Positions 13,015 through 44,986 of a DNA stretch of 44,986 nucleotides are shown here, one piece after another. The notes beneath the pieces were generated by a model, which worked only from the letters and a program-made list of their open reading frames with translations, had not been told where the DNA came from and did not search any database. The DNA is from Herpetosiphon geysericola (GTDB lineage Bacteria > Chloroflexota > Chloroflexia > Chloroflexales > Herpetosiphonaceae). How positions within the stretch are numbered: the stretch's first letter is position 1; each line of letters starts with the position of its first letter. Where the stretch lies: contig NZ_LGKP01000031.1 in assembly GCF_001306135.1 (NCBI RefSeq), positions 1 through 44,986 on the forward strand, read 5' to 3'. Position numbers and translations under genes: made by a program.

Positions 13015-15084
13015 ATGGCATCTTTATCAATGGAAGAATTTTTACATAATTTCCGCCAAGAAATTCTAGCTAATGCAGAAGCAAATATGGATTTCTTGGA
13101 AGTTGAATTTACTCAGAACATTGCGGATGAGCTTATCGATTCAGGAATTATTGATGGATTTGAACTAGGTCATCATCGCCTAGCAAGTGGTGGAATGAGA
13201 GTCGATGGATATTGGTTTAACGATAACTCCCTTGACTTATTTATTTCAGACTTTGCTAATCGAGAAACGCTACAGTCACTAGCACGAGCAGAGATCTCAC
13301 TTATTTTCAAACGCCTAGAAAACTTTTTTACTGCAAGTGCTGAGAAAAATCTGTATCTTAACCTAGAAGAGACTTCTCATGGTTATGACCTTGCTCGTAA
13401 TATAGCTGAGAGGTGCGGCTCTTTTTCTAAAGTAAATTTCTTTCTGTTTTCTGAGCGTATACTAAGTACACAGGTGAAAGAACTTGAAGATAAACAATAT
13501 AATTCGTGGAATTTCTCTTATAATATTTGGGATATCTCTCGCTTACACCGATTACAAACTTCACGAGGCGCTCGTGAAGAATTAGAGATAAACTTTGCTG
13601 AAATGATTGATCCAGGACTACCATGTCTTCCAGCACATCTGGATTCAGCAACATATAAATCATATTTAGTTGTAATGCCAGCCAAAATATTGGCTGATTT
13701 ATATGGAAAATATGGTTCTAGATTATTGGAACAAAATGTTCGTAGCTTCCTTCAAGTAAGAGGAAATGTTAATAAAGGTATTCGTGTTACTATCATGAAA
13801 AATCCTGAAATGTTTTTTGCCTACAATAATGGTATTACTGCAACAGCTAGACATATTGAAATAGTAAAAACATCTAATGGATTTGCTATAGCATCACTTA
13901 AGGATTTACAAATTGTTAATGGAGGACAGACTACTGCATCGCTATTTCATACTAATCGTAAAGATAAGGCACCGCTTGAAAATATTTTTGTACAGATGAA
14001 ACTGTCAGTTATTGATGAAGAAAAAAGTGAAGACATTATTCCTCAAATCTCTGAGTATGCTAACACTCAAAATAAGGTTAACGCAGCAGACTTCTTCTCA
14101 AATCATCCATTTCATATACGTATGGAAGAATTCTCACGCCGGATATGGGTTCCTGCTCAACAAGGCTCACAGCGTGAGACAAAATGGTTTTATGAAAGGG
14201 CACGTGGACAATATACCGATGCTCAAGCAAAACTCACCCCTACTCAGAAAAAACGTTTTGAGGCAGAGTATCCTAAAACACAGATGTTTACCAAAACAGA
14301 TCTTGCTAAGTTTGAAAATGTATGGGAGGGGTATCCAATTTCTGTCAATCAAGGTGCCCAAAAAAATTTTGGGCACTATGTAGGACGTATTGGACAAGAA
14401 TGGGACAAAAATGCAGATCAATTTAACGAATTCTTCTTCAAGCGTGCAATAGCCCGAGCAATCATTTTTCGTAGAACAGAAAAAATAGTTTCAGCTCAGT
14501 TTTGGTACAACGGTGGTTATCGAGCAAATGTCGTAGCCTACACTATTGCAATGATATCTAAAATATGCTCTCGTCAGAGAAAATCTTTTGATTTTCTCAA
14601 GGTATGGCATAATCAAGATATTAGTCAAGCCACGATACAAGCAATAGAGATCACTGCAAAACTTGTATATGATCATATTATGCATCCTACGGGTACTATT
14701 TCTAATATTAGTGAGTGGTGTAAAAAAGAAGCTTGTTGGGTAACTTTACAGGAAAAACTATATACTTTAGAAGAACTTCTTCCTGAATCTTTTTTTGAAG
14801 ATTTAGCTTTTACAGATCAATTGGAAAATGAAGCAAGATCTTCAGCAAAAACCCAAAAAATGCTGAATGGAATTGAGGCACAGAAAATAGTAGTTGGAAT
14901 TCCTGGTGAAACATGGGCATATATCCTTGCAGAGGGTCGAGAAAAAGGACTCTTCTCAGTAAAGGAGCAAGGAATACTTCAGGTCGCAGCGCGACTACCT
15001 CAAAAGATTCCTTCAGAAAAACAATCTTTAATTTTAATTGATATACTTGAAAAAGCAAAACTAGAAGCAATTTATCAAAAATAA
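13015..15084 (+). CDS. AIPR family protein
   Basis: This 689-residue protein matches the AIPR (abortive infection phage resistance) family. Characteristic segments are FAYNNGIT (268-275) and IVNGGQTT (300-307), followed by a region rich in charged helices (SEYANTQNKVNAADF) typical of the family. The start ATG 13015 has TGGAGCAA upstream. It is the last gene of the island, and a hairpin follows. A perfect 10-bp inverted repeat lies within the coding region at 14354-14376. The family's biochemical activity is poorly defined; in MORC/Z1 clusters it is a constant partner, probably an effector or nucleic-acid-binding subunit. Confidence 0.92.
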   Translation: MASLSMEEFLHNFRQEILANAEANMDFLEVEFTQNIADELIDSGIIDGFELGHHRLASGGMRVDGYWFNDNSLDLFISDFANRETLQSLARAEISLIFKRLENFFTASAEKNLYLNLEETSHGYDLARNIAERCGSFSKVNFFLFSERILSTQVKELEDKQYNSWNFSYNIWDISRLHRLQTSRGAREELEINFAEMIDPGLPCLPAHLDSATYKSYLVVMPAKILADLYGKYGSRLLEQNVRSFLQVRGNVNKGIRVTIMKNPEMFFAYNNGITATARHIEIVKTSNGFAIASLKDLQIVNGGQTTASLFHTNRKDKAPLENIFVQMKLSVIDEEKSEDIIPQISEYANTQNKVNAADFFSNHPFHIRMEEFSRRIWVPAQQGSQRETKWFYERARGQYTDAQAKLTPTQKKRFEAEYPKTQMFTKTDLAKFENVWEGYPISVNQGAQKNFGHYVGRIGQEWDKNADQFNEFFFKRAIARAIIFRRTEKIVSAQFWYNGGYRANVVAYTIAMISKICSRQRKSFDFLKVWHNQDISQATIQAIEITAKLVYDHIMHPTGTISNISEWCKKEACWVTLQEKLYTLEELLPESFFEDLAFTDQLENEARSSAKTQKMLNGIEAQKIVVGIPGETWAYILAEGREKGLFSVKEQGILQVAARLPQKIPSEKQSLILIDILEKAKLEAIYQK

Positions 15085-19927: not shown

Positions 19928-21073
19928 ATGAAAATTGGCTTTGTCTTTGATGATCACATGCACCGCATCGGCGGCATTCAGGTATATATTCGTGGTTTGT
20001 ACCATTATTTTGAGAGCCTAGGCCACGAGGTAGTGATTTTTGCTGGTGGCAGCCAGTTTGATAACGCCAAATTGGCCGAGCGGATTATTCCGTTGGGCGT
20101 TTCGTTGCCAACCTATGGTAGCGGCTCGAATACCTCATTGCCAATCTGCCTTGAATCAAATCGGCGATTGCGCGAGCTGTTAGAGGCCGAGAACTGCGAT
20201 ATTTTGCATATTCAGACCTTGCACTCGCCAACCATGGGTGGGCGTATTTTGGCCAATTCTAAGGCTTGCCACATCTCGACCTTTCATAATCGGGTTGATG
20301 AGCCGTGGAAATTGCAGGCTTTGCGCATGGTCAAGTACATTTTGCCCGATTTCTTTCGCCATGTGCATGGCCGAATTGCTGGTTCGCAGGCAGCAAAGGA
20401 GACGGCGCAGGCGATTTTTGGCAAGCAAGACGAATACACCGTAATTGCGAGCGGCATCAATCTTGAGCGTTTCGAGGATGCAGCCAATTTGCCACGCTTA
20501 CACCAATATGACGACGATAAAATTACTCTGTTTACACTTGGGCGCTTGGAACAGCGCAAAGGTGTGGAGTATTTGCTGCGCGCTTATGCCTTGCTCCAAA
20601 AGGATTATCCCAACCAATTGCGGCTGGTGATTGCTGGTGATGGGCCGTTGCGCGAAGAATTGCAGACCTTGGCCAAGCAATTGAATTTGAGCAATGTAGA
20701 ATGGCTTGGCTATGTGACCGATTTGGCCTTGCCGCATTTGATGGCCAGCGCCGATATTTTTTGTGCGCCAGCAATTGGCCAAGAAAGTTTTGGCTATGTG
20801 ATTGTTGAGGCGATGGCGCTTGGTTTGCCAGTCGTGGCGGCAGCCAATGCTGGCTATGCAGGCGTTTTGGTTAATCATCCAGGCAACTTAGCGGTGCCGC
20901 CGCGCGATCCACGGGCCATGGCTGGAGCAATTGCCAGCTTTATCGCCAGCCCAGCAGCGCGCAAAAAAATTGGCCAAGCGAATCGCCAACAGGCCAAAAA
21001 CTATAGCTGGCAGGTGATTGGCGACCAAATTATGGAGTTTTACAAAAAAACTTTAGCCCAAACTGTGCAATAG
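19928..21073 (+). CDS. Glycosyltransferase family 4
   Basis: This 381-residue GT-B enzyme transfers a sugar from a nucleotide-sugar with retention of configuration. The N-terminal domain has the glycine-rich acceptor loop (HRIGGIQVYIRGL). The C-terminal donor domain opens with FTLGRLEQRKGVEYLL and carries the EX7E motif E286/E294 in QESFGYVIVEAMALG. The overall pattern resembles phosphatidylinositol mannosyltransferase-like and capsule GT4 enzymes; acceptor and sugar cannot be fixed. GAGGTTG precedes the ATG. It appears monocistronic, with a terminator immediately downstream. Confidence 0.93.
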   Translation: MKIGFVFDDHMHRIGGIQVYIRGLYHYFESLGHEVVIFAGGSQFDNAKLAERIIPLGVSLPTYGSGSNTSLPICLESNRRLRELLEAENCDILHIQTLHSPTMGGRILANSKACHISTFHNRVDEPWKLQALRMVKYILPDFFRHVHGRIAGSQAAKETAQAIFGKQDEYTVIASGINLERFEDAANLPRLHQYDDDKITLFTLGRLEQRKGVEYLLRAYALLQKDYPNQLRLVIAGDGPLREELQTLAKQLNLSNVEWLGYVTDLALPHLMASADIFCAPAIGQESFGYVIVEAMALGLPVVAAANAGYAGVLVNHPGNLAVPPRDPRAMAGAIASFIASPAARKKIGQANRQQAKNYSWQVIGDQIMEFYKKTLAQTVQ

Positions 21074-21082
21074 TGCCAAGCA

Positions 21083-21130
21083 ATTAAGCGCTTTTTTGTG
21101 TAGTTTGCATAACAGGCGCTTAATCTTTTT
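21083..21130 (+). terminator. Intrinsic terminator after the GT4 gene
   Basis: A perfect 9-bp stem ATTAAGCGC/GCGCTTAAT (21083-21091 with 21116-21124) is followed by CTTTTT. The loop is long (24 nt) but the T-tract is in the right place. Confidence 0.65.
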
Positions 21131-21131
21131 A

Positions 21132-21140
21132 TGCTATAGT
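21132..21140 (+). promoter_or_regulatory. Extended -10 promoter of the small HTH gene
   Basis: TGCTATAGT gives an extended -10 (TG-n-TATAGT). No clear -35 is visible upstream because the terminator occupies that position. Confidence 0.5.
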
Positions 21141-21214
21141 AAGGTCTATGCCAACGGTGGCAACGAACCCCAATGTGGTGGATTCTAACGATGAGCTATC
21201 TAGAGGAGGCGCAT

Positions 21215-21421
21215 ATGCGTTCCCATGATTATTCAATCGAAGAAGCCGCCGGATTAATGCAGCTTTCCGAAGATACCGTGCGGCGTTGGGTTAGCAAAAA
21301 GTTGATTGGCGCGTATCAACTTGGGCGTGGCTGGCGAATTTCCGAAGATGAGATTCAAAATATTTTGACGGCGCGGCACGAAATGGAGCAAGAACGCCAA
21401 TTTGCTCCAAGCGCCGCCTAG
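21215..21421 (+). CDS. Small excisionase-type (HTH_17) DNA-binding protein
   Basis: This 68-residue protein is a single MerR-like winged helix of the excisionase family: YSIEEAAGLMQLSEDTVRRWV then KLIGAYQLGRGWRISEDEI. A strong GAGGAGG (21203-21209) lies 5 nt before ATG 21215, excluding the longer frame from 21173. Such proteins act as phage/transposon excision factors or as small chromosomal regulators. No integrase is adjacent, so a regulatory role is as likely. It has its own promoter and a strong terminator. Confidence 0.88.
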   Translation: MRSHDYSIEEAAGLMQLSEDTVRRWVSKKLIGAYQLGRGWRISEDEIQNILTARHEMEQERQFAPSAA

Positions 21422-21450
21422 GTTTAAGCTATTTTGGCCGACAACCCAAA

Positions 21451-21488
21451 GCCCGCTGGATTCTTCACGAATCCAGCGGGCTTTTTTT
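21451..21488 (+). terminator. Strong intrinsic terminator of the HTH gene
   Basis: A perfect 13-bp stem GCCCGCTGGATTC/GAATCCAGCGGGC with a 5-nt loop is followed by seven T residues (21482-21488). Textbook Rho-independent terminator. Confidence 0.95.
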
Positions 21489-21507
21489 AATTTCAGGCGC
21501 TGAGGTC

Positions 21508-21526
21508 TTAAACATCGCTCCTTGCA
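21508..21526. repeat. Left 19-bp direct repeat flanking the SAP gene
   Basis: TTAAACATCGCTCCTTGCA, matched at 18 of 19 positions by the copy at 22667-22685. The pair brackets exactly one gene. Confidence 0.75.
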
Positions 21527-21626
21527 AATGCTATGGCCGAAGCAGAAAGTTGGATTAAATAGAGCTGCATGATGCAAAACACGCGATAGATTGTTATACT
21601 TAATGCTACTTTTGAGTGAGAATAGT

Positions 21627-22670
21627 ATGGACTTTTTCGAAAAACCTTTTGATAATAGCGCTAATCAAGCAGCTCAACCAACTCCCGTTGAGCCTAATCA
21701 ACCAACGATCCTTGATGATTGGCGCAAATTCCCTGCTCACTTTATGTTCCTCAACGAATTTCGATCTGCTACAAATCCACAAATCTTTGCCGATATTAAT
21801 CATGGCAAACCTTGGCGCTGGGTGCTCAATGAGCATCCAACTTTCACGATTGAGCGTTGGATTCAGGATGGAATCTTGGTTCGCCCTTCGATCAACAGGT
21901 TGCTTGACGAATTGACTGAGCCGCAACTCAAAACATTGGCCAAAGAACGGGATTTGGACCTATCAGGTCAAAAGGCTGATCTTATTGCTCGCTTGATTGA
22001 GGCTGATCCGGCGGGAATGGCTGCGATTGTAGCAGATAACCCATTGCTTATCCTAAGCGACTATGGGGAATCACTGGTTGAACCCTTTCTTGAGTATGAG
22101 GCCCAACAGCGAGTCATCGCAGAAGCAGCGTGTATGGCTGCATTGAACGAGGGTGAATTCTATCGAGCTGAGCAGATTGCATTGCATGAGTATCATTCGG
22201 GTGTGTTTCCAATAGATTTTTATAATGCTGACGTAGCGCTCTTGTTGAGCATATTTATGACCCATCCATTTAGTTATTTCGATCAGCTTGAAGATGCCGA
22301 TCAACACGCTATTCGCCTTGCTACGGCGATGCGCTTTTTATGGGGCAATGAGCTAAGCCGCTGGTTGCCTAATGCTACGGCTGGAGATAATCGTTTTAGC
22401 GCTGCCCAGCTAGCCCAGTTGTTGCATGACTATACGTTTCATATTGCAACCATACAGCTCTATACGAAGGATTGGATTGATACCACGGTTGAGATTGTGG
22501 CTAGCCCAGAAGCATGTCCTGTATGTCAAAAGCTTAACAACATCTATCCAGTAGCTGAAATTCCGATGTTGCCACCGAAGGATTGCCAGAGCCCACTCAG
22601 TTGCTATTTTGATTATATTGATCAAACTAATTATTTCAACCCAGATGGAACTTGCATTATAGGTAATTAA
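21627..22670 (+). CDS. SAP-domain protein with C-terminal Cys motif
   Basis: This 347-residue protein contains a SAP motif at about residues 94-126 (LDELTEPQLKTLAKERDL, then SGQKADLIARL), a helix-turn-helix fold that binds AT-rich DNA. The middle is helical and acidic without a known domain. Near the C-terminus CPVCQKLNNIYP, then LPPKDCQ and SPLSC, form a cysteine cluster that recalls the CxxC...P.LPP..C tail of phage Mu F/SPP1 gp7-type head proteins, a resemblance only. ATG 21627 is chosen over upstream starts that overlap a TTATACTTAAT promoter-like stretch; the binding site is weak (GAGTGAG). The gene is bracketed by a 19-bp direct repeat and may be an inserted cassette. Confidence 0.75.
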   Translation: MDFFEKPFDNSANQAAQPTPVEPNQPTILDDWRKFPAHFMFLNEFRSATNPQIFADINHGKPWRWVLNEHPTFTIERWIQDGILVRPSINRLLDELTEPQLKTLAKERDLDLSGQKADLIARLIEADPAGMAAIVADNPLLILSDYGESLVEPFLEYEAQQRVIAEAACMAALNEGEFYRAEQIALHEYHSGVFPIDFYNADVALLLSIFMTHPFSYFDQLEDADQHAIRLATAMRFLWGNELSRWLPNATAGDNRFSAAQLAQLLHDYTFHIATIQLYTKDWIDTTVEIVASPEACPVCQKLNNIYPVAEIPMLPPKDCQSPLSCYFDYIDQTNYFNPDGTCIIGN

Positions 22671-22691: not shown

Positions 22692-23402
22692 TTATTTGGT
22701 GGCGATATGCACGGCAACTGCGCCCAAGCCCAATTGCTTCCAGGTCACATCGCGCCAGCCGCATTCGGCGATAATTTGGGCTAGCTCAGGTGGCTGGGGG
22801 AAAATCGATGCAGATTGGGGCAAGTAGGTATACGCCCGATTGTTGCCGCCAACGATGCTGCCAATTATTGGCACAATATTGTTGAAATAGAATTGATGAC
22901 CCCAGCGTACCAAGGGATTTTTGGGCCGCGCAACTTCTAAACATGCCAATTTGCCGCCTGGCTTGGTCACGCGCGCCATTTCGCTAAAGGCTTGGCGAAT
23001 ATCCACGATGTTGCGCATAGCAAAGCCAGTAGTCACAATATCAAACGATTCGTCGGCAAATGGTAAGTGCATACCATCGCCATTAACGAAGCTATGATCT
23101 GTTGTGTCTTGGTCGCGTTTGGCTTGACCCGCTGCCATCATTGCAAAGGTAAAATCCAGCCCAACCACGCCAACATTGGGCATGGCGCGTTGCAAAATCG
23201 GTAGAAAATCGCCAGTGCCAGAGCCAACATCCAAGGCCCATGTGGCGTCGGTTTGCTTGATGCGTTTGGTTGCCCAACGTCGCCAGCCTTGATCTAGCCC
23301 AAAGGTCATCAGCCGATTCATCAGATCATAGCGCTCGGCAATGGCTGTGAACATGGCGTTGACATAGACTGCTTTCTCATCAGATTGTGGCAAGACAGAC
23401 AT
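22692..23402 (-). CDS. ubiE: Demethylmenaquinone methyltransferase
   Basis: This 236-residue SAM-dependent enzyme performs the last C-methylation in menaquinone synthesis (MenG/UbiE). The first UbiE signature is at residues 18-43 (AIAERYDLMNRLMTFGLDQGWR), the SAM motif I DVGSGTGD at 58-65, and the second signature VTKPGGKLACLEVARP follows. Its ATG overlaps the ubiX stop by one base (TAATG), so the two are translationally coupled. An aerobic or respiratory Chloroflexota is expected to use menaquinone, so the MenG role is favoured over ubiquinone synthesis. Confidence 0.95.
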   Translation of the reverse strand: MSVLPQSDEKAVYVNAMFTAIAERYDLMNRLMTFGLDQGWRRWATKRIKQTDATWALDVGSGTGDFLPILQRAMPNVGVVGLDFTFAMMAAGQAKRDQDTTDHSFVNGDGMHLPFADESFDIVTTGFAMRNIVDIRQAFSEMARVTKPGGKLACLEVARPKNPLVRWGHQFYFNNIVPIIGSIVGGNNRAYTYLPQSASIFPQPPELAQIIAECGWRDVTWKQLGLGAVAVHIATK

Positions 23403-24001
23403 TATTCAAGCTCCAAGCCAGCCCATTGCTGGTTACTATCAAGCTCAGGGCTTAGCCCCAAGGCAACTAAAGCGCGGGCGGCCACAAAATCGACGACTTC
23501 GGCAACCGTAGTTGGGCGAGCATAGAAATTGGGCATCGGCGGCACGAGCCGCACGCCACGCTGCGCTAAACGTAGCATATTTTCCAAATGCACGCTCGAA
23601 AGCGGGGTTTCGCGCGGGACGACGACTAAGCGCCGTCCCTCTTTTTGGGTCACATCGGCCACGCGCAACAGCAAATTGTTGGCAAAGCCAGCAGCCAAGG
23701 CGGCAACCGTGCCCATCGAGCAGGGCACAATCAGCATGCCATAGACCGGATACGAACCGCTAGCAATCGTTGCCGCTTGATTATTGGGATTATGCTCGGT
23801 GATCAGGCCTGACGCCTGCCAACGCGCCACGGCCTCAGCCCAAGGGTAGCCTTGTTCTTGGCGCCAAACGATCCGAGCCGATGAAGTAGCAATCAACTCA
23901 ATCGGATGTTCCAAAGCGATCAAGCGCTCGATGACCCGATCGGCGAGAGCTGCTCCACTCGCGCCGCTAACCCCAACCACCACTGGCAAACGCTTACTCA
24001 T
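23402..24001 (-). CDS. ubiX: UbiX flavin prenyltransferase
   Basis: UbiX attaches a dimethylallyl group to FMN to make prenylated FMN, the cofactor of UbiD-type decarboxylases. The 199-residue protein has the flavin-binding GVSGASG (10-16), PCSMGT (93-98), the PRETPLS active-site segment (129-135) and the terminal MPNFYARP loop. Its start overlaps the upstream PHP-AlbA gene by 8 bp and its stop overlaps the ubiE start, forming a three-gene coupled unit. No UbiD partner lies within the window. Confidence 0.95.
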   Translation of the reverse strand: MSKRLPVVVGVSGASGAALADRVIERLIALEHPIELIATSSARIVWRQEQGYPWAEAVARWQASGLITEHNPNNQAATIASGSYPVYGMLIVPCSMGTVAALAAGFANNLLLRVADVTQKEGRRLVVVPRETPLSSVHLENMLRLAQRGVRLVPPMPNFYARPTTVAEVVDFVAARALVALGLSPELDSNQQWAGLELE

Positions 24002-26327
24002 CGTCCCATAGCTCCAATAATTCGCGCCATTCGTTTTCTAGCTCTTCGCGCCGAGCAGCATAGTAGATATGGTCAACGCCATCTTCATCGCGATAGACTA
24101 AATCGACCTGTGAGCGCATTGGCCGCATATAGCCGATGTTGCCCCACCAACGTACTGAGGCCTCATCGATTGGCAGATCTTCGAGGAACATACGGGCGGC
24201 ATACTCGCGCACCGTGCCTTGCTCAAGATCTAAATCGCGCCATGGGTCGCTGACTTCGCCGCTGCGCAAATTGCGGAAGCGGAAGGAGCGGCCAAAATCG
24301 CTTTCTTCCATTGCTACAACTTCGATGCCTGTGGTTGGGGGCTTGACCCGAATCAGATTGAGCCATGCTTCGGTCAATTTGGCGCGGGTTACGTCGTTGA
24401 AGGTTTGAAACTCTTCATCTTCTTTGTTTTTCATGGCAAGGTCGAAGCGAATTTTTTCTTCGTTGCCATAGATGCGCCATAAGCCGCCACGGCCCTTCCA
24501 ACGATATTTGCGGTCGCCCCACGGCAGCCAATTGTCTTCATTGTCCGATGCTGCATCGTCAATTGGGGCGCTAAAGCTGCGTGGTGCGCTGATTGGGGCA
24601 TGATCGTCGTTATCGTTGGCATCGACTGCAAAGCTATCGTTGATGCCAAGCAGCGAGCGCCAGCCCTCACCAAGCCCCCACTCGGAAACGCCATAAAAAA
24701 TATGGTCGATTACGCCTGAGGCATCGCGATGAATCAGATCATATTTGGTGCGATTGCCTTGTTGGAAGGTACGCCAAACGCCGAGCCGACCATACCAGCG
24801 TACATCTTCGTTGAGGTCAATTTTGGCATCGCGCAATTCTTCGTGGCGCGAGATGGCATAAGCCCACAAGCCTTGGGCGCGATCGCGTTCAACGCCGGTG
24901 GTAGTGCGCAAATCACGCACTTCATAGGTCCAAACTGCGTTGCGTTTTTGCTCGCTCACAATCTCGACGCCGGAGCGTGGCAATTCCAAATCTTCGCCAT
25001 TATCAAGTGGCGACATCATGCTGCGAACCAAGGCGCGACGAGCAAGTTGCAACAATTCTTCGCGGTTGGCAACCTGAGTTTGATCATCGCGGCGCACATA
25101 GACTGCACCATTGCTTGCAACATAGGGTGGCAATTCATCGGGCTTAACTTCAACCCGCACAACATCGCGTTCTTGATATTGCATTAATTCGAGGCTGAGG
25201 TTTGGTTGCGGGTCGAGGTATTGAGCCACAAGCTGTTTGATTTGCTCGCTTATGCTGCTTGCTGAGACAGTTTGCTCGCCATCGGTGCCAATTAAGATCA
25301 CCCCGCCATCAGCATTGGCAAGGGCTGCCACATCGTGCCAAACTTGCGCCAGATACTCCTCGGTTGCCGGACGGGCAATTAAGTGGCGCGAATCGCCATT
25401 CAGTCGCACGTTATCAATCTCCCATTGCTTTTGGTCGCGGCGTGGCACGCGCACCTTATCGATTTGCTTGCTACTCAACAAGGTTTTCAAGGCATCGAAT
25501 GAAGCTTCGGGCAAGAGCGCCTCGAAATAGCGGTCGCCAACGCCATAGAATTTTTTGCTTTCTTGGTCGTCGGCAGCGGCGCGATTGACGCGATGGGCAT
25601 CGGAGCCTTGAATACAGAACATTGGCCGTTCGTAATAGGTATGTTGGCCATTATAAAAGGTTGGGCTGAGGTAGCTTTCGTGGGAAGCGTAGAAATGGAC
25701 AAATTCGAGGGCGTGTAAATAGGGGCTTTGGGTCGCTGCAACGCGTGATTGGCCGCTATTGCCAAAGCGAATTGATTCGCTGACCACGCCGGAATGGGCA
25801 TTAACGTGGGCTGCAATCACAATGCCCCCAGCCCGATTGATAATTTCATAGGCTTCGGTAACGTGTTTGGTGTTGGAGATTGAGCACGAGCCAGCCTTTA
25901 ATTCTTGAGCTGGAATCCCCAATTGCAACAAGACTGCTTCAAGCACGCTGAGCGGCGTGGTTGGGGCAAAAAGGGCCAAAATATGCGAGCCATAGTGGCT
26001 AGTAAATTCAAAGCCTGGCAGCACAGTCAAGTGAGCCAACAATTGTTGATATTCGCCGTAGCGTTCGCGCTCCTCGGGCGTACAGCGATCTGCTTGCACA
26101 AAGCGTTCGAGCAAGGCTAGCTCATCGCGAAATTGTTCATAGCCGCGAATCGTGTTGTGGTCGGTAAAGGCAATAATATCAAGTTGATGGGCTGCTGCTG
26201 CCCGTAAAATATCGAGATAACTTACCTCTGGTTCTGCATAATCTTCAGATGCTGGCGTATGGATATGTAAATCTAAACGCATCCATCGCTCGGAAGGCGC
26301 AGATAACTGCTCATCGCTAAACGTCAT
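23994..26327 (-). CDS. PHP-domain and AlbA-like fusion protein with C-terminal repeats
   Basis: This 777-residue protein starts with a PHP phosphoesterase domain: HIHT at 21-24, TDHN at 55-58, then conserved His/Asp loops to about 290 (metal-dependent hydrolysis). A segment at about 325-425 (NADGGVILIGTDG and VYVRRDDQTQVANREEL) matches the AlbA_2/Schlafen-like domain, often linked to nucleic acid binding. The C-terminal half holds three repeats starting near 509, 608 and 725 (VRWYGRLGVWR, YRWKGRGGLWR, VRWWGNIGYMR), each followed by a yDL strand and a W..LL helix. ATG 26327 is taken as start; an in-frame TTG at 26417 would add 30 residues. It is coupled to ubiX. Function unknown; a nucleic-acid-directed phosphoesterase is inferred. 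Confidence 0.82.
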   Translation of the reverse strand: MTFSDEQLSAPSERWMRLDLHIHTPASEDYAEPEVSYLDILRAAAAHQLDIIAFTDHNTIRGYEQFRDELALLERFVQADRCTPEERERYGEYQQLLAHLTVLPGFEFTSHYGSHILALFAPTTPLSVLEAVLLQLGIPAQELKAGSCSISNTKHVTEAYEIINRAGGIVIAAHVNAHSGVVSESIRFGNSGQSRVAATQSPYLHALEFVHFYASHESYLSPTFYNGQHTYYERPMFCIQGSDAHRVNRAAADDQESKKFYGVGDRYFEALLPEASFDALKTLLSSKQIDKVRVPRRDQKQWEIDNVRLNGDSRHLIARPATEEYLAQVWHDVAALANADGGVILIGTDGEQTVSASSISEQIKQLVAQYLDPQPNLSLELMQYQERDVVRVEVKPDELPPYVASNGAVYVRRDDQTQVANREELLQLARRALVRSMMSPLDNGEDLELPRSGVEIVSEQKRNAVWTYEVRDLRTTTGVERDRAQGLWAYAISRHEELRDAKIDLNEDVRWYGRLGVWRTFQQGNRTKYDLIHRDASGVIDHIFYGVSEWGLGEGWRSLLGINDSFAVDANDNDDHAPISAPRSFSAPIDDAASDNEDNWLPWGDRKYRWKGRGGLWRIYGNEEKIRFDLAMKNKEDEEFQTFNDVTRAKLTEAWLNLIRVKPPTTGIEVVAMEESDFGRSFRFRNLRSGEVSDPWRDLDLEQGTVREYAARMFLEDLPIDEASVRWWGNIGYMRPMRSQVDLVYRDEDGVDHIYYAARREELENEWRELLELWDDE

Positions 26328-26474
26328 TTTCCGTTTTACTCCATCAAGATCAATGTTTTTTCTTTTGCCAAAAACTCTCGACTTCTCGTGTCGATTTTGT
26401 TCGTCATGATACCTCAATCTGGTCAGAGCGGCAATTTACTTAAATTTGACCAATGGGTCGCAAATATGTTCTAT

Positions 26475-26490
26475 TGTTTCCCGTGAAACA
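26475..26490. promoter_or_regulatory. parS-like site 1
   Basis: TGTTTCCCGTGAAACA differs from the bacterial ParB consensus TGTTTCACGTGAAACA at one position. The flanking T and A extend the palindrome to 18 bp. It is 38 bp left of the first DnaA box. Confidence 0.75.
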
Positions 26491-26528
26491 ATCTAACGTT
26501 GATCTAATGCAACTTAGTTATCAAGAAG

Positions 26529-26595
26529 TTATCCACAGCATGTGGATAACTTTGGTTAATTGCTAATGTGGAAAAGCTGTGGGAAATGTGTATAA
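26529..26595. promoter_or_regulatory. Cluster of four DnaA boxes
   Basis: TTATCCACA (26529-26537, plus), the same box inverted (26541-26549), TTTTCCACA (26567-26575, minus) and TTATACACA (26587-26595, minus). All fit TTWTNCACA. The first two are separated by only three bases, forming a perfect 21-bp palindrome apart from the centre. No comparable cluster was noticed elsewhere in the window. Confidence 0.75.
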
Positions 26596-26740
26596 CTCGG
26601 CCAATTTAGGCGCTAAGGTTAATTCGTGATTAAGCAATTGTGGATCGTCGTGCAGATGTTCACATTGATCCAGCATATTCAAAGCTATAAAAACAACGTG
26701 CTGTTATTTAGGCAGCACGCTGTTAATCCAACTGGTTAAA

Positions 26741-26756
26741 TGTTTCCCGTGAAACA
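26741..26756. promoter_or_regulatory. parS-like site 2
   Basis: TGTTTCCCGTGAAACA, identical to site 1, with one mismatch to the ParB consensus. It ends one base before the stop of the MBL-fold gene. Confidence 0.75.
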
Positions 26757-26757
26757 T

Positions 26758-27483
26758 TTAGGCGGAGTACGTCCACGCTTGGCCTGGTTGCAAGGCCACA
26801 ATTTCTGTTTTCAACTCAAGCTTGTTCAACTCGTTTTGCAAGGCTTCAGGGTTGCCCTGCAAGGCAGGGAAGGTACCGTAATGCTCTGGAATCGCGAATT
26901 GCGAGCCGATTAATTTGAGGGCATGGGCTGCTTGACGTGGCCCCATGGTGTAGAAATCGCCAATTGGCAAGATTGTGACATTGGGCTGGTAAATTTCGCC
27001 CATCAAAGCCATATCGCTGTGGACACAGGTATCGCCAGTGTGATACACCACGCAGCCATCGGAAAATTCGAGGATAAAGCCACACGGATCGCCCAAATAG
27101 AGCGAAACATTGCCGCTGGTAATGCTGCTGCTATGGTGCGCTGTCGTCAAGGTTGCTTTGATGCCAGCAATCTCGATGCAACCACCTTTGTTGTAGCCAA
27201 TACATTGTGTCGCAGCAACACCTTGGCCTTGCACCCAACCGATTAATTCGACAATCCCAGCAATTGGGGCTTTGGTTTGGTTGGCAAGCTCAACCGCGTT
27301 ACCAGTATGATCCATATGACCGTGGGTCAGCAAAATCGCATCAAGCTGCTCAAGCTCAGCTTTGGCCGCTTCAGAAAAGCTTGGATTGCCTGCATACCAA
27401 GGATCAAGCACAATCCGCTTGCCTTCGGGCGTGACGAATAGAAAGCTGGCGTGACCAAGCCAAGTGATGGTCGTGTTGGCCAT
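26758..27483 (-). CDS. Metallo-beta-lactamase-fold hydrolase (UPF0173 type)
   Basis: This 241-residue cytosolic protein has the MBL zinc motif HGHMDH (His54, His56, Asp58, His59) after an N-terminal WLGHASF strand, then TAHHSSSI, HTGDT and PEHYGTFPAL supplying the remaining ligands. This pattern fits the UPF0173 metal-dependent hydrolase family, small enzymes whose natural substrate is generally not known. AAGGAGA lies 8 nt before the ATG. It is 45 bp downstream of the GH31 gene and may be co-transcribed with it. Confidence 0.9.
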   Translation of the reverse strand: MANTTITWLGHASFLFVTPEGKRIVLDPWYAGNPSFSEAAKAELEQLDAILLTHGHMDHTGNAVELANQTKAPIAGIVELIGWVQGQGVAATQCIGYNKGGCIEIAGIKATLTTAHHSSSITSGNVSLYLGDPCGFILEFSDGCVVYHTGDTCVHSDMALMGEIYQPNVTILPIGDFYTMGPRQAAHALKLIGSQFAIPEHYGTFPALQGNPEALQNELNKLELKTEIVALQPGQAWTYSA

Positions 27484-27528
27484 GAAATGATCTCCTTACA
27501 CACCAAATACGGCTAACTCGCTAAAATT

Positions 27529-29379
27529 CTACCACAGCCGTTCGAATAAGGGCATGGTTTCCAATGGCGCTGGATAATTGTAAAGCCAGGTTTCGCCATC
27601 GAATTTCTCGCCAGTCCAATAATCGCGCCAGCCACCTTCGGGCAAGTAAATATCGCGTTGGTAGCGCTTGGCTTGAAGAATCGGCGCAGCCAAATATTGC
27701 TCGCCAAACAGCCATTGGTCGCCAATAAAGCGGGTGCTAGCATCGTCGGGATAGTGCCACCACAATGGGCGCACGAGCGGCGTGCCTTCAGTCGTCGTTG
27801 CTTGCAACAATTCAGCAATATATGGCTCTAGCTCGGCGTGTAATTGGGCATAACGCTGGCAAATCTGGCTGGTTTCAGCATCGTATTGCCAAGGCGCAAT
27901 TGAGAATTGCATGGCAGGCAAGAGCGCAGTCACTTGCGTCCAGCGAATCAGCAATTCGCGTTCGGGAAATTCGCCATTATAGGCATTGCCGCCAATCATA
28001 TCGGGCAACACGTAGGGATAGCCGATCACGCTCATAGCAAGTGCTTGAGTTATGACCGCATGCAAGCCATTATCCATACCCCAGCGGCTCCATTTATCCC
28101 ATTCGCGGAAGAAGATTGGCTGTTGTTGTGAGCGCCAACCAGTGCGCACCTCGGTCCATTGCCACGATTGGGCTACGAAGGCAACGTAGCGATCGCTATA
28201 TTGATTGGGCGTCATTGGGAGATAGGTTTTGGCCTCTGCTGGCAGGAAATTGCCTTCAGCACCATCGAATTTAAAGCCATCGATACCATACAAGCTTTGC
28301 AAGCGTTCTAAGCCAGCTTGCCACCAGGCTAACGCTGCCGGATTTGAAACATCCAACAAGCCGCCCCAACCTTGCCACCAACGAGTCAAATAGGGTTGAT
28401 CATTGCCAGGATGTTTGACCAAATAGCCATGGGCTGCTGCTTCGGCAAACGCTGCACTTTTGGGATCAAAGAATGGTGGAATCCACAAGGTTACTTTATA
28501 ACCAAGCTGATGCAATTGATCGACCATTGCCTTGGGATCGGGAAACTTGCGCCGATCGAATTCAAGATCGCCGTAAGCTGTTTGCCAGCGATCATCGATT
28601 TCGAGCACAGAGTAAGGATACTGATGATCGATGATTTCTTGGGCAAAGGCCAAGGTTTGGGCTTGATCGATATCCATTTTATAGCGTGCCCAAGTTGTCC
28701 AGATTGGCTTGCTGAACATGGCCAAGGGCGGTGCAGCTTTGGGATAACCAAGTTTTTGAATAATTTGTTGCGCGGCGAGGCTCACATTCTCAGCAATCAC
28801 GAGATCGAGCACCAAGCGCGTGCCTGCATAATGAATTTCGCTACCATCTAAGCCTGCGCCGAATGGGGTTGGCGAAGGAAATTGAAGTAAACGAATAACG
28901 CCAGCAGGATCGCTATCGATCGTAACGTGCAATGGCCCAGTATCTTCAGCGACCATCAAGGCCACACCATTTGCGCCAATCCACACCGGCGTAACAATAT
29001 TAAGTGTGCCATCATCGGCGTGATCGTAGGTAATGAAGGGTTGGCTTTGCACGCCAGCCAAATTAAGCGGCCAGCTTTGGATCACTCGTTCGCCCATGCC
29101 ATACCACGAGCCTGCTGGCTGAATGCCGATTGCAAGGCCAATTTGAGCAACTTGATGTTTCACGTGAAACACCAAGCGATAGCCAGTTGATGTGGTTTTC
29201 AGATTCAATTCAAAGCTTTGGTTATCGAAGCTGGTGTATTGCACTGTATCGGGCTGGGTTTGCACGCCCATTGCGGCAAACTGCGAGCCATATTGAGCCA
29301 AATAGGGCTGAATCGTCAGCACCTCTTCATCATCGCGTTGAAATACCAATAAGCCTGTTGATTCAAGGGTATATGCCAT
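27529..29379 (-). CDS. Glycoside hydrolase family 31 enzyme
   Basis: This 616-residue enzyme hydrolyses alpha-glycosidic bonds with retention. The N-terminal beta-sandwich (to about 215) precedes the TIM barrel. The catalytic nucleophile is D372 in FKFDGAE, and the likely acid/base is D436 in GMDNG. IDDRWQ and KVTLWIPPFFD match the MYORG-like or alpha-galactosidase branch of GH31 rather than the classic alpha-xylosidases. A proximal beta domain ends the protein. No signal peptide, so it acts on imported oligosaccharides in the cytosol. GAGGTAT precedes the ATG. The coding sequence contains a perfect parS site (29156-29171), read in frame as FHVKH. Confidence 0.92.
   Translation of the reverse strand: MAYTLESTGLLVFQRDDEEVLTIQPYLAQYGSQFAAMGVQTQPDTVQYTSFDNQSFELNLKTTSTGYRLVFHVKHQVAQIGLAIGIQPAGSWYGMGERVIQSWPLNLAGVQSQPFITYDHADDGTLNIVTPVWIGANGVALMVAEDTGPLHVTIDSDPAGVIRLLQFPSPTPFGAGLDGSEIHYAGTRLVLDLVIAENVSLAAQQIIQKLGYPKAAPPLAMFSKPIWTTWARYKMDIDQAQTLAFAQEIIDHQYPYSVLEIDDRWQTAYGDLEFDRRKFPDPKAMVDQLHQLGYKVTLWIPPFFDPKSAAFAEAAAHGYLVKHPGNDQPYLTRWWQGWGGLLDVSNPAALAWWQAGLERLQSLYGIDGFKFDGAEGNFLPAEAKTYLPMTPNQYSDRYVAFVAQSWQWTEVRTGWRSQQQPIFFREWDKWSRWGMDNGLHAVITQALAMSVIGYPYVLPDMIGGNAYNGEFPERELLIRWTQVTALLPAMQFSIAPWQYDAETSQICQRYAQLHAELEPYIAELLQATTTEGTPLVRPLWWHYPDDASTRFIGDQWLFGEQYLAAPILQAKRYQRDIYLPEGGWRDYWTGEKFDGETWLYNYPAPLETMPLFERLW
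29156..29171. promoter_or_regulatory. parS site 3, perfect consensus, inside the GH31 gene
   Basis: TGTTTCACGTGAAACA is identical to the ParB consensus palindrome. It lies in coding sequence, as parS sites often do. Confidence 0.85.
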
Positions 29380-29974
29380 AAATACCTCAGGTAGTGATCA
29401 ATCGTTGCAAGTATTATAGTTGGGGATCGGGGATCGGGGGTCGGGGATTAGGCTATGGGCTTTGGGAGAATAGAATTCTAATAATCTGTGGCAAAAACAG
29501 CCTTCGCGATCTTCGCGGTTTCAATCCTGCGTCGATCGAATTTTTAACGCAGAGGCGCAGAGAACCGATGGCTCTCTTGGCTTTGGACTATCGGAAGATA
29601 ATCACAATAATCAATGCTCATCTGTGGCGAAAAATCGTGCTTCGTGGATTAATTTTTAACGCAGAGGCGCAAAGAACTAAAGGATGAAGTACGAGGGATG
29701 AAATTCTAACAGGATTAGCATTTGAGTGTGTGGTTAGGGCAATAATCAACATAATCTGTGTAATCTGTGGCTAAAAATGGCTCTTCGTGCAATTCGTGGC
29801 TAAAGTTTCACGTGAAACATGGCTGCGATCAAAATAGATCAGATTTTAGTTACCAATTGAGCCTTCAAAATAGTCAAAACATCTACCAATCAGTATGTTT
29901 TTATCCCTTTACAACAATATATTTTTATATTGATTGTAAGTGTTTTTACTTTATTTAAAACCTCGTTCGTTCAG
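29380..29974. other. Repeat-rich spacer with a parS site
   Basis: No gene seen. It contains runs of 'gggatcgggg', two copies of 'aacgcagaggcgca', 'aatctgtgg' words and 'ttcgtgg' words, then an AT-rich stretch (29820-29970). It separates the minus-strand block to the left from the plus-strand GH13 genes to the right. Confidence 0.6.
29804..29819. promoter_or_regulatory. parS-like site 4
   Basis: AGTTTCACGTGAAACA matches the ParB consensus except for the first base. Confidence 0.75.
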
Positions 29975-30088: not shown

Positions 30089-33000
30089 ATGCGTGACACA
30101 GCCCATCGTCGGAGCCTGATCAGTAGAAGCTTGCTGGTCAGTATGCTATTGGCGTTAATGATCCCCACGCTTAGCCCTCAAACTCCCGTGGTTGCCGCCC
30201 AACCCACTAAGGTTGATTTGGCTAGCAACGCTCCCACTATTTCCAATGCCTTAGTTAATTGGTGTTTCGCTGGTGCTTTCCAAGGCTGGAACAATGGCTC
30301 AACCCAAGCCAACGATGAAGGTCTCAATGGCGATCTAGTCGCTGGCGATGGCATCTATTCACGTGATGTTGTCGTTCCAAGTGTAAATGTTGGTATCTCT
30401 GGATGGAAGGCTGTAGTTTGTGATAGCTGGAATCCTTCAGTACCTGCTGGAGCACTCGATTCTTGGATGCACACAACTCAAGCTAATCAAACAGTCAAAT
30501 TGACCCTCGATACCAACAATTACAGTTCCAATGCTGGCAATCATGGCCTGCCAAGCCAAAATATTCTTCATGCCTACGATTCAGGCTTTGCCAATTGGAC
30601 GGCTGTTGGCTCGTTCCAAAGCACTGCTTGGACAAACAACGATCCTGCTACGGCTATGACCGACATCGGCAATGGCTGGTATTCGTTGGTCTACACTGTG
30701 CCTAATGCAGGAAGCTACCAAGGCAGAGTTGAACGAACAGGTGATGCGACCACTCGCTATACCACAGTTGGCCGTGTAATTGGTTTTGATGATGGCAACA
30801 TTAGCTTTACCACGACCGAAGCCAACCAAAAAGTAACCTTTTTGCTCGATACCAACACCAGTCGCTTGACGATTCGCCCGCAAACCGCTGGCAACACTGG
30901 CCCTTGGTGTGCGCCAGGCAATTATCAAGTGCCAACATGGGACCCACCAATGAATCCATTATTTGATAACGGAACCCAAGGCGACTTGGTTAGCGGCGAT
31001 GGGGTTTTTAGCCGCGATGTGATTGTTCCGGTTTCAGGAACATATTCATGGAAGGTTAACGCATGTAGCTGGGCAACAGCATTTCCTGCCGCTGATGCTT
31101 GGATCTACACAACGCAGCCAAGTCAAACTGTAAAATTGTTGTTCGATAGCAACAATCACGCAAACGATACTGGCTGGGAACTTAAACCAGCTCAAAACAT
31201 CGTCAATGCGCTCGATTCATCGAATGATTTCACGGTGGTTGGCTCGTTTCAAGGTATTTGGGATAATGATGATCCTGCTACCAAAATGACCCAAATCGCC
31301 CCAAATCAATTTGTGTTACGCTATACCGTAGCCGCACCTGGCGATTATGCTGCTAAATTCACCCGCACTGGCTCATGGACAGAGCAATACAATGCTCAGG
31401 GTCGGGTGTTCGATGCTGGTGAGCCAGCCCCAATTGGTTTTACGACAACCACATTGAATGAAACTGTCGTGTTTTATTTAGATAATCGCACAGGCCGCGT
31501 AGCGATTACCCCGCAACGCGATGGCCAAATTCCCGATTCAGTCATTGGCGATGGCGTGATCAATCGCGATGCAATTCAGCACCACAGCCGCGAATCGCTT
31601 TATCGCGTACCATTCGGCGCTGAGCCGCTCAACCAAGCAGTCAAATTGCGCTTGCGCACCGCTGCTCACGACATCACTCAAGCGCGCATTCGCTTGTATT
31701 ACACCGCCAACAACGGCCAAAGTATTCAACGCATGACCAAAGTGGCCAGCGATGAAAGCTACGATTATTGGGAATACACCATGCCAGCCCAAACCGTGCT
31801 GGGCGTGGTTTACTATCGTTTTATCATCGAAGATGGCAGCACAACCCTCTTCTATGAAGATGATAGCTTGTTCGATGGTGGCTTAGGCGAGGTGGTCAAT
31901 ACTAGCGCTGATCGCTCGTGGAACATCTACATCTACGACCCAGCGTTTACCACGCCTGAATGGGCACAAAACGCCACGATTTATCAAATTTTCGTCGAGC
32001 GCTTCCGCAATGGCGATGCAGGCAACGACCCAACTGGCGTAGCAACCGACACGACCTATCCCGGGCGCGGCTGGTTCTACCCAACCGAGCGCGGCCACCG
32101 CTTCCCAGTCACGCCATGGAACTCGATTGTGCCCGATCCAGAGCCATTTACCGACCCGAGCAACCCATGGTGGTCGACTTACAGCAGCACAATGTATGGT
32201 GGCGACTTGAATGGGGTCCAAGATAAGCTCGATTATTTGCAAGAGTTGGGCGTAACCACGCTCTATCTCAACCCAATTTTCGATAGCCCATCGAACCACA
32301 AATACGATGGCCGCAACTATCGCACGGTTGACCCAGCGTTTGGTGGCCAAGCTGCATTCGATGCTTTGGTAGCCGATGCGCATAATCGGGGCATGACCGT
32401 GGTGCTCGACGGCGTGCCAAACCACGTCAGCAGCGATAGCCCATTCTTCGATCGCTTTGGCCGCCACGCTGAAGTTGGCGCATGCGAAAGCGTCACTAGC
32501 CCTTATCGCTCGTGGTTCTTCTTTGAACCAGCTGCCGAGCCAGGCACCGGCGTTTGCGCAGGCGATACCAACTATCGCGGTTGGTTTGGCGTAGCAACCT
32601 TGCCGCAAATCAACACCAATCATCCCGAAGTAATGGCCTATTGGTTTGGCACGCCTGGTGGCAACCCCAACTTGCCAACCAACACCGCCAGCTACTGGGT
32701 CGATGGCGAAAACAAGGCCGACGGCTGGCGCATCGACGTTGTGCCCGATGTGATTGGGGTCAACCCAACCTTCTTTGAAACATGGCGCGACGTGATGAAA
32801 GCCGCCAATCCCGATTCCGTGCTTTACTCCGAAACCTGGAGCGAAGGCGATGTACGTGATCGAGTGCTTGGCGATGAATTCGACAGCACCATGAACTATC
32901 GTTATCGCCGCGCGGTGTTGGGCTTCTTGCGCGATACCCGCTGGGTCGATGGCGACGGTGGCCAAGAGATCGATCCGCTCTTGCCAAGCCAATTTGTCAA

Positions 33001-35365: not shown

Positions 35366-35405
35366 CTCTCATTCCAACCCGCTAATTGAATACCGATAAT
35401 GGTGT

Positions 35406-35447
35406 CGGGGTATTGTCGCTGGCCTAGCCAGCGCGATACCCCGTTTT
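35406..35447 (+). terminator. Intrinsic terminator of the first GH13 gene
   Basis: A two-part stem, CGGGGTAT/ATACCCCG (35406-35413 with 35436-35443) around CGCTGGC/GCCAGCG (35417-35423 with 35427-35433), is followed by TTTT. The strong stem and short T-run make it a likely terminator. Confidence 0.8.
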
Positions 35448-35588
35448 GCACCGCTCAATGGTGAGGCTCTGTTGGTTGTTGTGAGGATGGTCTAGGCCGC
35501 CATCGTTGCGAGCACCAACAGGGAGCATAGGAAGCTGAGCGCTCGACGCTAGGTTTGGTGTGCCTAAAATTTGGCGCACGGCTCCTAT

Positions 35589-35606
35589 TGAAACGTTGGT
35601 GTTTCA
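35589..35606. promoter_or_regulatory. Candidate operator upstream of the second GH13 gene
   Basis: TGAAAC and GTTTCA form a 6-bp inverted repeat with a 6-nt spacer, overlapping a TTGAAA -35-like hexamer about 40 nt before the start. It could be a carbohydrate-responsive repressor site; no regulator is adjacent. Confidence 0.3.
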
Positions 35607-35644
35607 CGACAAATACTCTAACAACGCTGTAAACGGAGTTATTT

Positions 35645-38369: not shown

Positions 38370-38399
38370 AATGGGCGCTAGTAATTGCTAGCGCCCATT
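38370..38399. terminator. Bidirectional terminator between GH13 and ATL genes
   Basis: A perfect 12-bp stem AATGGGCGCTAG/CTAGCGCCCATT with a 6-nt loop lies between convergent stops, with AT-rich sequence on both sides. It probably ends both transcripts. Confidence 0.85.
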
Positions 38400-38731: not shown

Positions 38732-38967
38732 ACATTCACTCGCTACTAAATCACCTATCAGCACTTTAGCACGGAACTACGAAGCAGACAGAAGTTTTGA
38801 TCCACGAAGCGCACGAAGCGCACGAAGAACGAAAACCGCGAAGAACGCAAAGTACACAAAGCACATTTTTTAGCCACAGATTGCTCAGATTAGGGGATAG
38901 TATTCAGGGGTTAGGGATTAGGAGATAGAGATGAGAGACCGCGAAGGTTGGGTTTATAGAAACGTGA
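38732..38967. other. Repeat-rich spacer
   Basis: No gene seen. It holds 'cacgaagcgcacgaag', 'gaacgaaaaccgcgaagaacgc' and similar words, then the second copy of the structured repeat. Confidence 0.6.
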
Positions 38968-39056: not shown

Positions 39057-39086
39057 TGACTTTAATTCTAATAAATGATTTTGGAT

Positions 39087-44002: not shown

Positions 44003-44110
44003 TTACTTACGGCGCACAATTACGCCCAACACGAGCAAGAGCATGGCAACCGAGGCCCAAGCCCAGCCATAGCTTGGTCGGGTGCTGCTGGTATCAGGCA
44101 AGGTAGTTAA
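44003..44110 (-). pseudogene. C-terminal sorting-signal remnant of a surface protein
   Basis: On the minus strand this frame reads TLPDTSS, a short linker, a hydrophobic helix (WASVAMLLLVLGVIV) and RRK before TAA at 44003-44005. That is the tripartite layout of a sortase-type (LPxT-like) cell-wall anchor. The frame runs into an in-frame stop a few codons further upstream, exactly where sequence turns AT-rich. No start codon or body is present, so it is the 3' stump of a gene cut by an insertion. Confidence 0.65.
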
Positions 44111-44207
44111 TAAAATTACCTATTGGTTTTTAACTTTTTTCTGCTAGAATAAGGTAAATTTTTAGCCTAACAATTACTATATCCTCTTTACATCCTAATC
44201 TATAGAA

Positions 44208-44256
44208 TGATATATCGCTGATTCTATATCAAATAACATTACTGTTTGTGCAGTAA
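44208..44256 (+). promoter_or_regulatory. Two inverted repeats before the AT-rich gene
   Basis: TGATATA/TATATCA (44208-44214 with 44225-44231) and TTACTG/CAGTAA (44239-44244 with 44251-44256) lie just upstream of the GAGAGG ribosome binding site. They could be an operator and a leader hairpin. Confidence 0.35.
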
Positions 44257-44267
44257 GAGAGGTTAAT

Positions 44268-44873
44268 ATGAAGAGTTTGCCTAAGAAAACTGTTGGTGCA
44301 TGGTTAGTCCATCATTCTTCGAAACTTCAGCAGATATCGAATGTTACATCTTTTGATTCCATAGCATTGGCAGGAAAGGCTGGATTACTCTTATCTACTT
44401 TATGTGAATCAGAAAGCCAAAGCACACTTTCGAAGGAAAAAGTAGATACTTTAGCACGCAGTGCAGGTATTAGTGCAGTATTGGAATTACCCACTCTATT
44501 AAATAAACTGGAAAGTCAAAGATTAATAAGTATTAGTAATACTGGTGATATAGAAACACTTGGTTTAACAACATCAGCAGTCTTGCAACATACTCATGAT
44601 ATATTTATTTCTTCAAATCCTCAAAAAGAAGAATTTATTGCAATAGACATAGCAGAAAGAACATCTCAGTATCCTTATCAAGGTAATTTATTAAAAGAAT
44701 ATATAAGCGATACATATCAAACAACAAATTTAATAACAGATGAAATATTTTCTCAATCCGAAGAGATTGGGTTTATTGATCATGAAGACTTTGAGAATCA
44801 AAAAATCTACTTTAACGGAAATCTTTTCAGAACAAATGACCCTAAGAAAATGCTATCTATACGCTTGATGTGA
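44268..44873 (+). CDS. AT-rich gene of unknown function, probably truncated
   Basis: I do not recognise this 201-residue protein. It begins KSLPKKTVGAWLVHHSSKL, then has a helical region compatible with a winged helix (KVDTLARSAGISAVLELPTLLNKLESQRLI). It ends abruptly with FNGNLFRTNDPKKML followed by a few residues and a stop, just before mobile-element-like sequence. The abrupt end suggests the original frame was cut. Composition is strongly AT-rich, like the defence island and unlike its surroundings. GAGAGG lies before the ATG. Confidence 0.6.
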   Translation: MKSLPKKTVGAWLVHHSSKLQQISNVTSFDSIALAGKAGLLLSTLCESESQSTLSKEKVDTLARSAGISAVLELPTLLNKLESQRLISISNTGDIETLGLTTSAVLQHTHDIFISSNPQKEEFIAIDIAERTSQYPYQGNLLKEYISDTYQTTNLITDEIFSQSEEIGFIDHEDFENQKIYFNGNLFRTNDPKKMLSIRLM

Positions 44874-44892
44874 GTTATGATGAAAGCATTGC

Positions 44893-44957
44893 TTGACAAA
44901 CAAGGACGGAAGTCCCACGATGGAAGTGCTTACCCACCATCCGAAGGAGTTCCGTCC
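44893..44957 (+). promoter_or_regulatory. Promoter-like box and RBS-sequestering hairpin
   Basis: TTGACA (44893-44898) precedes a nested inverted repeat: GGACGGAAGTCC (44904-44915) pairs with GGAGTTCCGTCC (44946-44957, one mismatch), and GATGG (44919-44923) pairs with CCATC (44937-44941). The right arm contains most of the GAAGGAG ribosome binding site (44943-44949) and touches the ATG. A read-through transcript would hide the start signal. Confidence 0.5.
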
Positions 44958-44986
44958 ATGGCTAGTATAGCATTTTCTGACCTGAT
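44958..44986 (+). CDS. Start of a gene running off the window, possible transposase
   Basis: Only nine codons are visible (MASIAFSDL). GAAGGAG is 8 nt upstream of the ATG. The preceding inverted repeat masking the RBS is a known way of limiting transposase synthesis, and the upstream gene seems interrupted here. The assignment is an inference. Confidence 0.35.

Follow-up and report, generated by a model that had tools for sequence, protein, structure and literature searches.

Between a PHP/Schlafen gene and an MBL-fold hydrolase gene, the Herpetosiphon genome analysed here carries a compact and nearly invariant array of DnaA boxes located among parS sites. We consider it somewhat probable, judging from sequence comparison, that this array is a DnaA-binding element of the parS centromere region and that the main oriC lies about 27-30 kb away, at a larger box cluster next to a gene with a bifunctional-nuclease (BFN) domain, perhaps together with a further group of boxes at pyrD. 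The window, i.e. the whole stretch of DNA that was analysed, is a complete contig (C25) of 44,986 bp; the genome is a 46-contig draft of 6.14 Mb. Coordinates of the features are collected in Table 1.

Table 1. Boxes, parS sites, genes and other features of the window
Feature	Position	Strand	Remarks
PHP + Schlafen AlbA_2 gene	23994..26327	-	downstream of boxes; ORF and domain matches
parS-like site TGTTTCCCGTGAAACA	26475..26490		one mismatch to consensus
Conserved core around boxes	26513..26596		80/84 columns invariant in 6 Herpetosiphon
DnaA box TTATCCACA, left arm of inverted pair	26529..26537	+	exact match; invariant in 6 Herpetosiphon
DnaA box TTATCCACA, right arm of inverted pair, 3-bp gap	26541..26549	-	exact match
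30-bp array TGTGGAAAANCTGTGGGNAATGTGNATAAC, box triple, fixed 11/9-bp spacing	26567..26596	+	in 8 of 9 family genomes at up to 3 mismatches
DnaA box TTTTCCACA, right-hand triple no. 1	26567..26575	-	exact match
Weaker box TTTCCCACA, right-hand triple no. 2	26578..26586	-	read from sequence
DnaA box TTATACACA, right-hand triple no. 3	26587..26595	-	exact match
parS-like site TGTTTCCCGTGAAACA	26741..26756		one mismatch to consensus
MBL-fold metal-dependent hydrolase gene (NF001911)	26758..27483	-	ends at second parS
GH31 gene	27529-29379		contains perfect parS at 29156
Perfect parS TGTTTCACGTGAAACA	29156..29171		inside GH31 gene
parS-like site AGTTTCACGTGAAACA	29804..29819		one mismatch to consensus
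C25 right end	44108..44986		adjoins left end of C9 by synteny with H. giganteus

DnaA boxes and parS sites in the window

An earlier note on this DNA had listed four exact matches to TTWTNCACA within 67 bp at 26529-26595. All four are present, with no further match anywhere in the 44,986 bp. The two boxes described there as an inverted pair three bases apart form a perfect pair, TTATNCACANNNTGTGNATAA, that occurs at a single place in the genome. A weak box TTTCCCACA (26578-26586), absent from the earlier note and beyond the reach of a one-mismatch scan with TTATNCACA, lies between the last two exact matches; it reads TTACCCACA in two other genomes (G022 and G025). The box at 26587..26595 is replaced by TTATGCACA in three other Herpetosiphon, a difference at the free N position only.

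The number of TTWTNCACA matches across the window (4 vs a shuffle mean of 4.88) is unremarkable, thus the signal is in their clustering. Under a first-order Markov model the 430-bp intergenic stretch has 0.11 matches on average; of 20,000 simulations, 0 had at least four and 5 had at least three. Genome-wide, TTATNCACA was found in 72 + 62 occurrences, vs 28 + 35 for the reversed control. The box cluster is real, and its clustering beyond chance is confirmed.

The cluster is intergenic, located between the probable start of the PHP/SLFN gene and the end of the MBL-fold gene (26758). As the start of the PHP/SLFN gene we took the probable ATG at 26327; the listed ORF extends to 26417, from a TTG. 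The MBL protein is 90-92% identical to its relatives in three named Herpetosiphon species, which assigns the organism to this genus. At its N-terminus the product of the PHP + Schlafen AlbA_2 gene (23994-26327) weakly matches models of TrlF and of anti-phage Ppl, with scores far under the NCBIfam cut-offs. Gene orientation had been put forward as a sign of a bidirectional origin, with the genes on the left (22692-29379) running leftward and those from 30089 rightward. The genes of 22692-29379 do run leftward and those of 30089-38365 rightward; however, the leftward direction returns at 38399-42320, the genes of 19928-22670 run rightward, and the cluster sits within the leftward run instead of at the point of divergence.

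Two other features of the window were observed. A low-GC block at 6195-15084 (about 31-37%), with matches to DrmMII/cytosine methylase, MzaB, MzaC, MzaD and MzaE models, is a probable Mza-type anti-phage system. Counterparts of window positions 5889 and 15136 stand about 36 bp apart in H. giganteus, so the block is an insertion relative to that species. A tmRNA gene with tag GKNTFRAPVALAA occupies 118-476 on the minus strand.

parS is a 16-bp palindrome, and sites were called by comparison with its consensus. The bracketing of the boxes by two parS sites, which the earlier note had pointed out, was reproduced: the sites at 26475 and 26741 are each one mismatch off the consensus. At up to one mismatch the 6.14-Mb genome has four parS sites, all at 26475-29819 and within 3.3 kb of the boxes, and the whole-genome scan detected no further place at this threshold. 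Since the four parS sites of the genome are found here, the region is probably origin-proximal. TGTTTCCCGTGAAACA at 26475 and 26741 looks like a hybrid, with one half from parS and the other from a Noc site.

In H. aurantiacus (6,346,587-bp complete chromosome; G018) four parS-type sites occupy 5,533,012-5,536,454. One more one-mismatch site, the single TGTTTCCCGGGAAACA at 2,593,631, is close to the skew maximum of that chromosome, which could be chance. The window's own genome gave two ParB-domain matches, of which the better, at C1:167760, stands beside a ParA-like gene; this genome's ParB (L251 7392-9130, C1) scored 221 bits with the Noc model (cut-off 315) vs 187 with the general parB model. 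The parB gene is about 600 kb off the parS cluster in H. aurantiacus (6134311) and less than 1 kb from parS in Chloroflexus aggregans.

Conservation of the array

With up to three mismatches, TGTGGAAAANCTGTGGGNAATGTGNATAAC was identified in eight of nine family genomes (seven with none and G010 with three); it was not found in G028, a genome that is 75% complete. Among the other genomes of the order, 3 of 73 have it, each at exactly three mismatches. As a control, the best match in 79 H. aurantiacus stretches had seven mismatches.

In six Herpetosiphon genomes the four boxes are invariant in 35 of 36 columns, the variable column being the N position of box 4. Outside the conserved core (Table 1), the flank 26641-26738 keeps only 34 of 103 columns invariant in the same six genomes; the stretch 26328-26470 beside the PHP gene is well conserved too (127/143). 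In two genomes of other genera (G025 and G010) the triple again sits in the MBL-PHP intergenic region; the far end of this region carries a parS-like site in G025, and six parS-type palindromes occur within the region in G010. On our reading of the sequences by eye, without alignment, the rest of the region appears unlike between genera.

The BFN-linked cluster described below, examined in the window's own genome and in H. aurantiacus, gave no match to the triple better than nine mismatches. By its sequence the window element is a conserved array of putative DnaA boxes, tied to the centromere in the Herpetosiphon family and distinct from the BFN cluster.

The BFN-linked cluster and the position of oriC

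At C9:11766-11997 of the same genome is a larger cluster, 10 boxes at up to one mismatch in 232 bp, flanked by a BFN-domain gene (PF02577) on one side and a response-regulator/ANTAR gene on the other. About 250 bp past the cluster, two windows of 50 bp have a GC content of 28%. When 700- and 1100-bp stretches were searched for the least stable 80 bp, the BFN cluster gave -86.2 kcal (99.88th percentile of H. aurantiacus windows) and the window cluster -96.4 kcal (98.7th percentile).

Positions C25 44108 and C9 2466 map less than 100 bp apart on the H. giganteus genome (G002). From this synteny we infer that C25 meets the left end of C9 with its own right end in the genome analysed here, which would place the BFN cluster about 27-30 kb from the window boxes. 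The corresponding distance is 33,329 bp in H. aurantiacus and 26.8-31.7 kb in three other Herpetosiphon genomes. The BFN cluster of H. aurantiacus (5.5663-5.5666 Mb) has, relative to the window cluster, an orientation opposite to that in G002, G014 and G022, which suggests a local inversion around the likely origin. Five further boxes at pyrD (L249 9592-9864, own C9; also present in H. aurantiacus and H. giganteus) are about 2 kb from the BFN cluster, thus the origin may be bipartite.

To rank clusters we used a score of our own, in which a perfect box counts 3 and a one-mismatch box 1, within 300 bp. The top clusters in 1.6 Mb sampled from H. aurantiacus were the BFN cluster (11), the window-type cluster (10) and the pyrD group (8); the best reversed control had 6. 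Clusters of this kind are rare, as the idea of an origin here had presupposed: three with a score of at least 8 in the 1.6 Mb, two of them in the BFN-pyrD region.

The BFN gene is present in 57 of 60 genomes of the order. We took the 30 best-scoring loci of the 57 genomes with a match (the window's own genome, H. aurantiacus, H. giganteus and G010 were examined separately), and 29 of these 30 have a box cluster scoring at least 7 in the 1.5-kb flanks of the gene or at its edge; one locus (G026) has no box cluster. In control pieces, all from C. aggregans, such a score was reached in 0 of 100. With more boxes, a less stable stretch and recurrence across the order, the BFN locus is, on these comparisons, more likely to be oriC than the window cluster, which therefore ranks low as main oriC.

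The earlier note also held that the origin would be unlinked to dnaA. The dnaA gene of this genome is indeed on another contig (C12:274841), and in H. aurantiacus the DnaA domain is at 470 and the window-type cluster at 5,533,065, about 0.8 Mb from dnaA. The region upstream of dnaA was considered as oriC and rejected. Its one perfect and four one-mismatch boxes all have the same direction (L086) and look more like an autoregulated promoter; the least stable 80 bp of this region is in the 98.6th percentile. A genome of another family (G007, f3) has a pair of boxes upstream of dnaA plus a BFN cluster.

Cumulative GC skew, which had been named as a check on the cluster, was calculated in several ways for H. 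aurantiacus. None of them puts the minimum at the window cluster (5.533 Mb), but the results differ from one calculation to the next and the trough is a flat one. The chromosome-wide minimum is at 4.41 Mb (2-kb bins) or 5.91 Mb (20-kb stretches). A profile restricted to 5.50-5.58 Mb reaches its low point in the bin ending 5.566 Mb, the site of the BFN cluster; this minimum holds only inside its 80 kb, since in the 20-kb profile both 5.62 Mb (-2168) and 5.91 Mb (-2718) are below 5.56 Mb (-2043). The amplitude is significant (reached in 0 of 2000 shuffles). The maximum stays near 2.6 Mb (2.5-2.8 Mb in 496 of 500 subsamples), while the minimum is a flat trough at about 4.1-6.2 Mb, placed by subsamples at 5.9 Mb (248 of 500), at 5.6 Mb (117) or at scattered positions. 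Minima of TA and GC+TA skew are both at 4.77 Mb (2-kb bins).

The best GC step fit is at 4.56/2.64 Mb. Step fits barely separate an origin near 5.53 Mb from one near dnaA: GC favours the former (residual 0.001185 vs 0.001209), and TA (0.002067 vs 0.002035) and GC+TA (0.004384 vs 0.004369) slightly favour the latter. In 60 bootstraps of the fit the origin was spread across a large part of the chromosome. The k-mer polarity is mostly negative to 5.56 Mb and mixed beyond, with several stretches of wrong sign at 4.16-5.12 Mb. In H. aurantiacus the skew is weak and too flat for placing the origin.

In C. aggregans, where BFN is at 2,627,765, parS at 2,630,045, parB at 2,630,919 and dnaA at 619, a sample of 22 stretches (9% coverage, denser near 2.6 Mb) has its GC-skew minimum at 2.64-2.65 Mb, near BFN and parS, and its maximum at 0.28-0.39 Mb, with dnaA nearby. 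The amplitude was equalled in 3 of 2000 shuffles of the stretches. The minimum stayed at 2.6-2.8 Mb in 300 of 500 subsamples, the others being spread over 2.0-3.7 Mb (12 commonest values); for TA and GC+TA skew the minimum falls at 2.198 Mb.

Proposed role of the array and competing readings

If the array serves the centromere and replication starts at the BFN locus, DnaA would be expected on the paired high-affinity boxes and on the ordered triple, beside ParB-covered parS. The replication fork would copy the array soon after initiation; its sites would double early and leave less DnaA for re-initiation at oriC. Through this early duplication the array would divert DnaA from oriC, mark the centromere for segregation or do both. 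Placed among parS sites, it could also let DnaA act on the ParB complex, as a review describes for Caulobacter (PMC6399470). With their register fixed, the boxes speak more for an ordered DnaA complex than for a loose sink. The locus that fires, the binding of DnaA and ParB, titration and the coupling to segregation are all things that we infer. The window cluster of H. aurantiacus scores near the BFN cluster (10 vs 11), which counts against this assignment of roles.

The chief rival explanation makes the boxes an element of the promoter of the PHP/SLFN gene (23994-26327), through which DnaA regulates it, with their proximity to parS being incidental. We find this unlikely. The boxes begin some 200 bp ahead of the gene's probable start and could belong to its promoter; the would-be leader contains a terminator-like stem (26378-26394) downstream of a promoter-like match (26434-26406, minus strand), and the gene stays beside the array in three genera. 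Promoter-like matches, however, are not commoner than in shuffles (1 vs a mean of 1.5; terminator-like 3 vs 0.4), and the centromere would also account for the kept synteny.

It is unlikely, in our judgement, that the window cluster is itself the main chromosomal oriC and the BFN cluster an accessory site. Such a role would fit the four closely spaced boxes, two of them a perfect inverted pair, the flanking parS sites, the strong conservation and the second-highest cluster score in 1.6 Mb of H. aurantiacus; still, the BFN cluster is richer in boxes, has the less stable stretch and the lowest skew within 5.50-5.58 Mb, and its counterparts span families, while the window array is nearly restricted to one. 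What stands of the candidate origin proposed earlier is thus the neighbourhood and its separation from dnaA; as main oriC this particular cluster probably gives way to the stronger one at BFN. A second, weak or former origin, still able to fire, is also unlikely: no stretch here is as AT-rich as by the BFN cluster, and in the 5.50-5.58 Mb profile the cumulative skew keeps falling beyond the cluster to about 5.566 Mb, even if the inverted pair and the ordered triple are like origin arrays and the local 80-bp stability is in the 98.7th percentile.

The preferred reading, a centromeric array apart from a BFN-linked oriC, has a close likeness in Caulobacter crescentus, where centromeric DnaA sites are coupled to segregation (Mera et al. 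2014, as cited in PMC6399470). In both cases DnaA boxes are in the parS region, near the origin yet, in Herpetosiphon probably, separate from it. The same arrangement was found here, with the boxes between parS 26475 and 26741, and the array and parS-type sites occur together in G025 and G010. The differences are that Herpetosiphon belongs to another phylum and that its array is fixed, nearly invariant and ~27-33 kb from the likely oriC; the two systems are likened by description.

In Bacillus subtilis, six clusters of DnaA boxes lie away from oriC (Okumura et al. 2012, via the review PMC5295017). Like these, the Herpetosiphon cluster lies outside the likely oriC and is expected to hold free DnaA; unlike them, it is one tight array embedded in parS. 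According to the same review, datA and DARS of Escherichia coli are non-origin loci of DnaA boxes that tune initiation, with which the array shares its proposed position outside the origin, but it differs from them in being placed at parS. Vibrio cholerae rctA/parS2 likewise combines initiator-binding sites and a centromere near an origin; there the initiator is RctB, not DnaA (PMC6399470).

In the open-licence PMC literature that we consulted (including PMC10225481 and PMC6667618), neither a parS-located array of DnaA boxes in Chloroflexota nor an oriC linked to BFN was reported. The H. aurantiacus paper orients a map to dnaA and measures the positions of gene clusters from the replication origin (PMC3368417); the C. 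aurantiacus paper puts oriC at twelve o'clock and gives dnaA as Caur_0001 (PMC3150298).

A bolder proposal is that the family has a dedicated centromeric DnaA element that gates segregation, a second independent case after Caulobacter, and that in Herpetosiphon and Chloroflexus oriC is at BFN and not at dnaA; going by the sequences compared here, we hold this to be possible, if doubtful. Should oriC be at BFN, contrary to the published genome papers, maps and dosage arguments would shift, in C. aggregans by more than 2 of 4.7 Mb. A conserved centromeric DnaA array far from the phylum of Caulobacter would, if true, make the coupling of initiation to segregation testable as a recurrent design.
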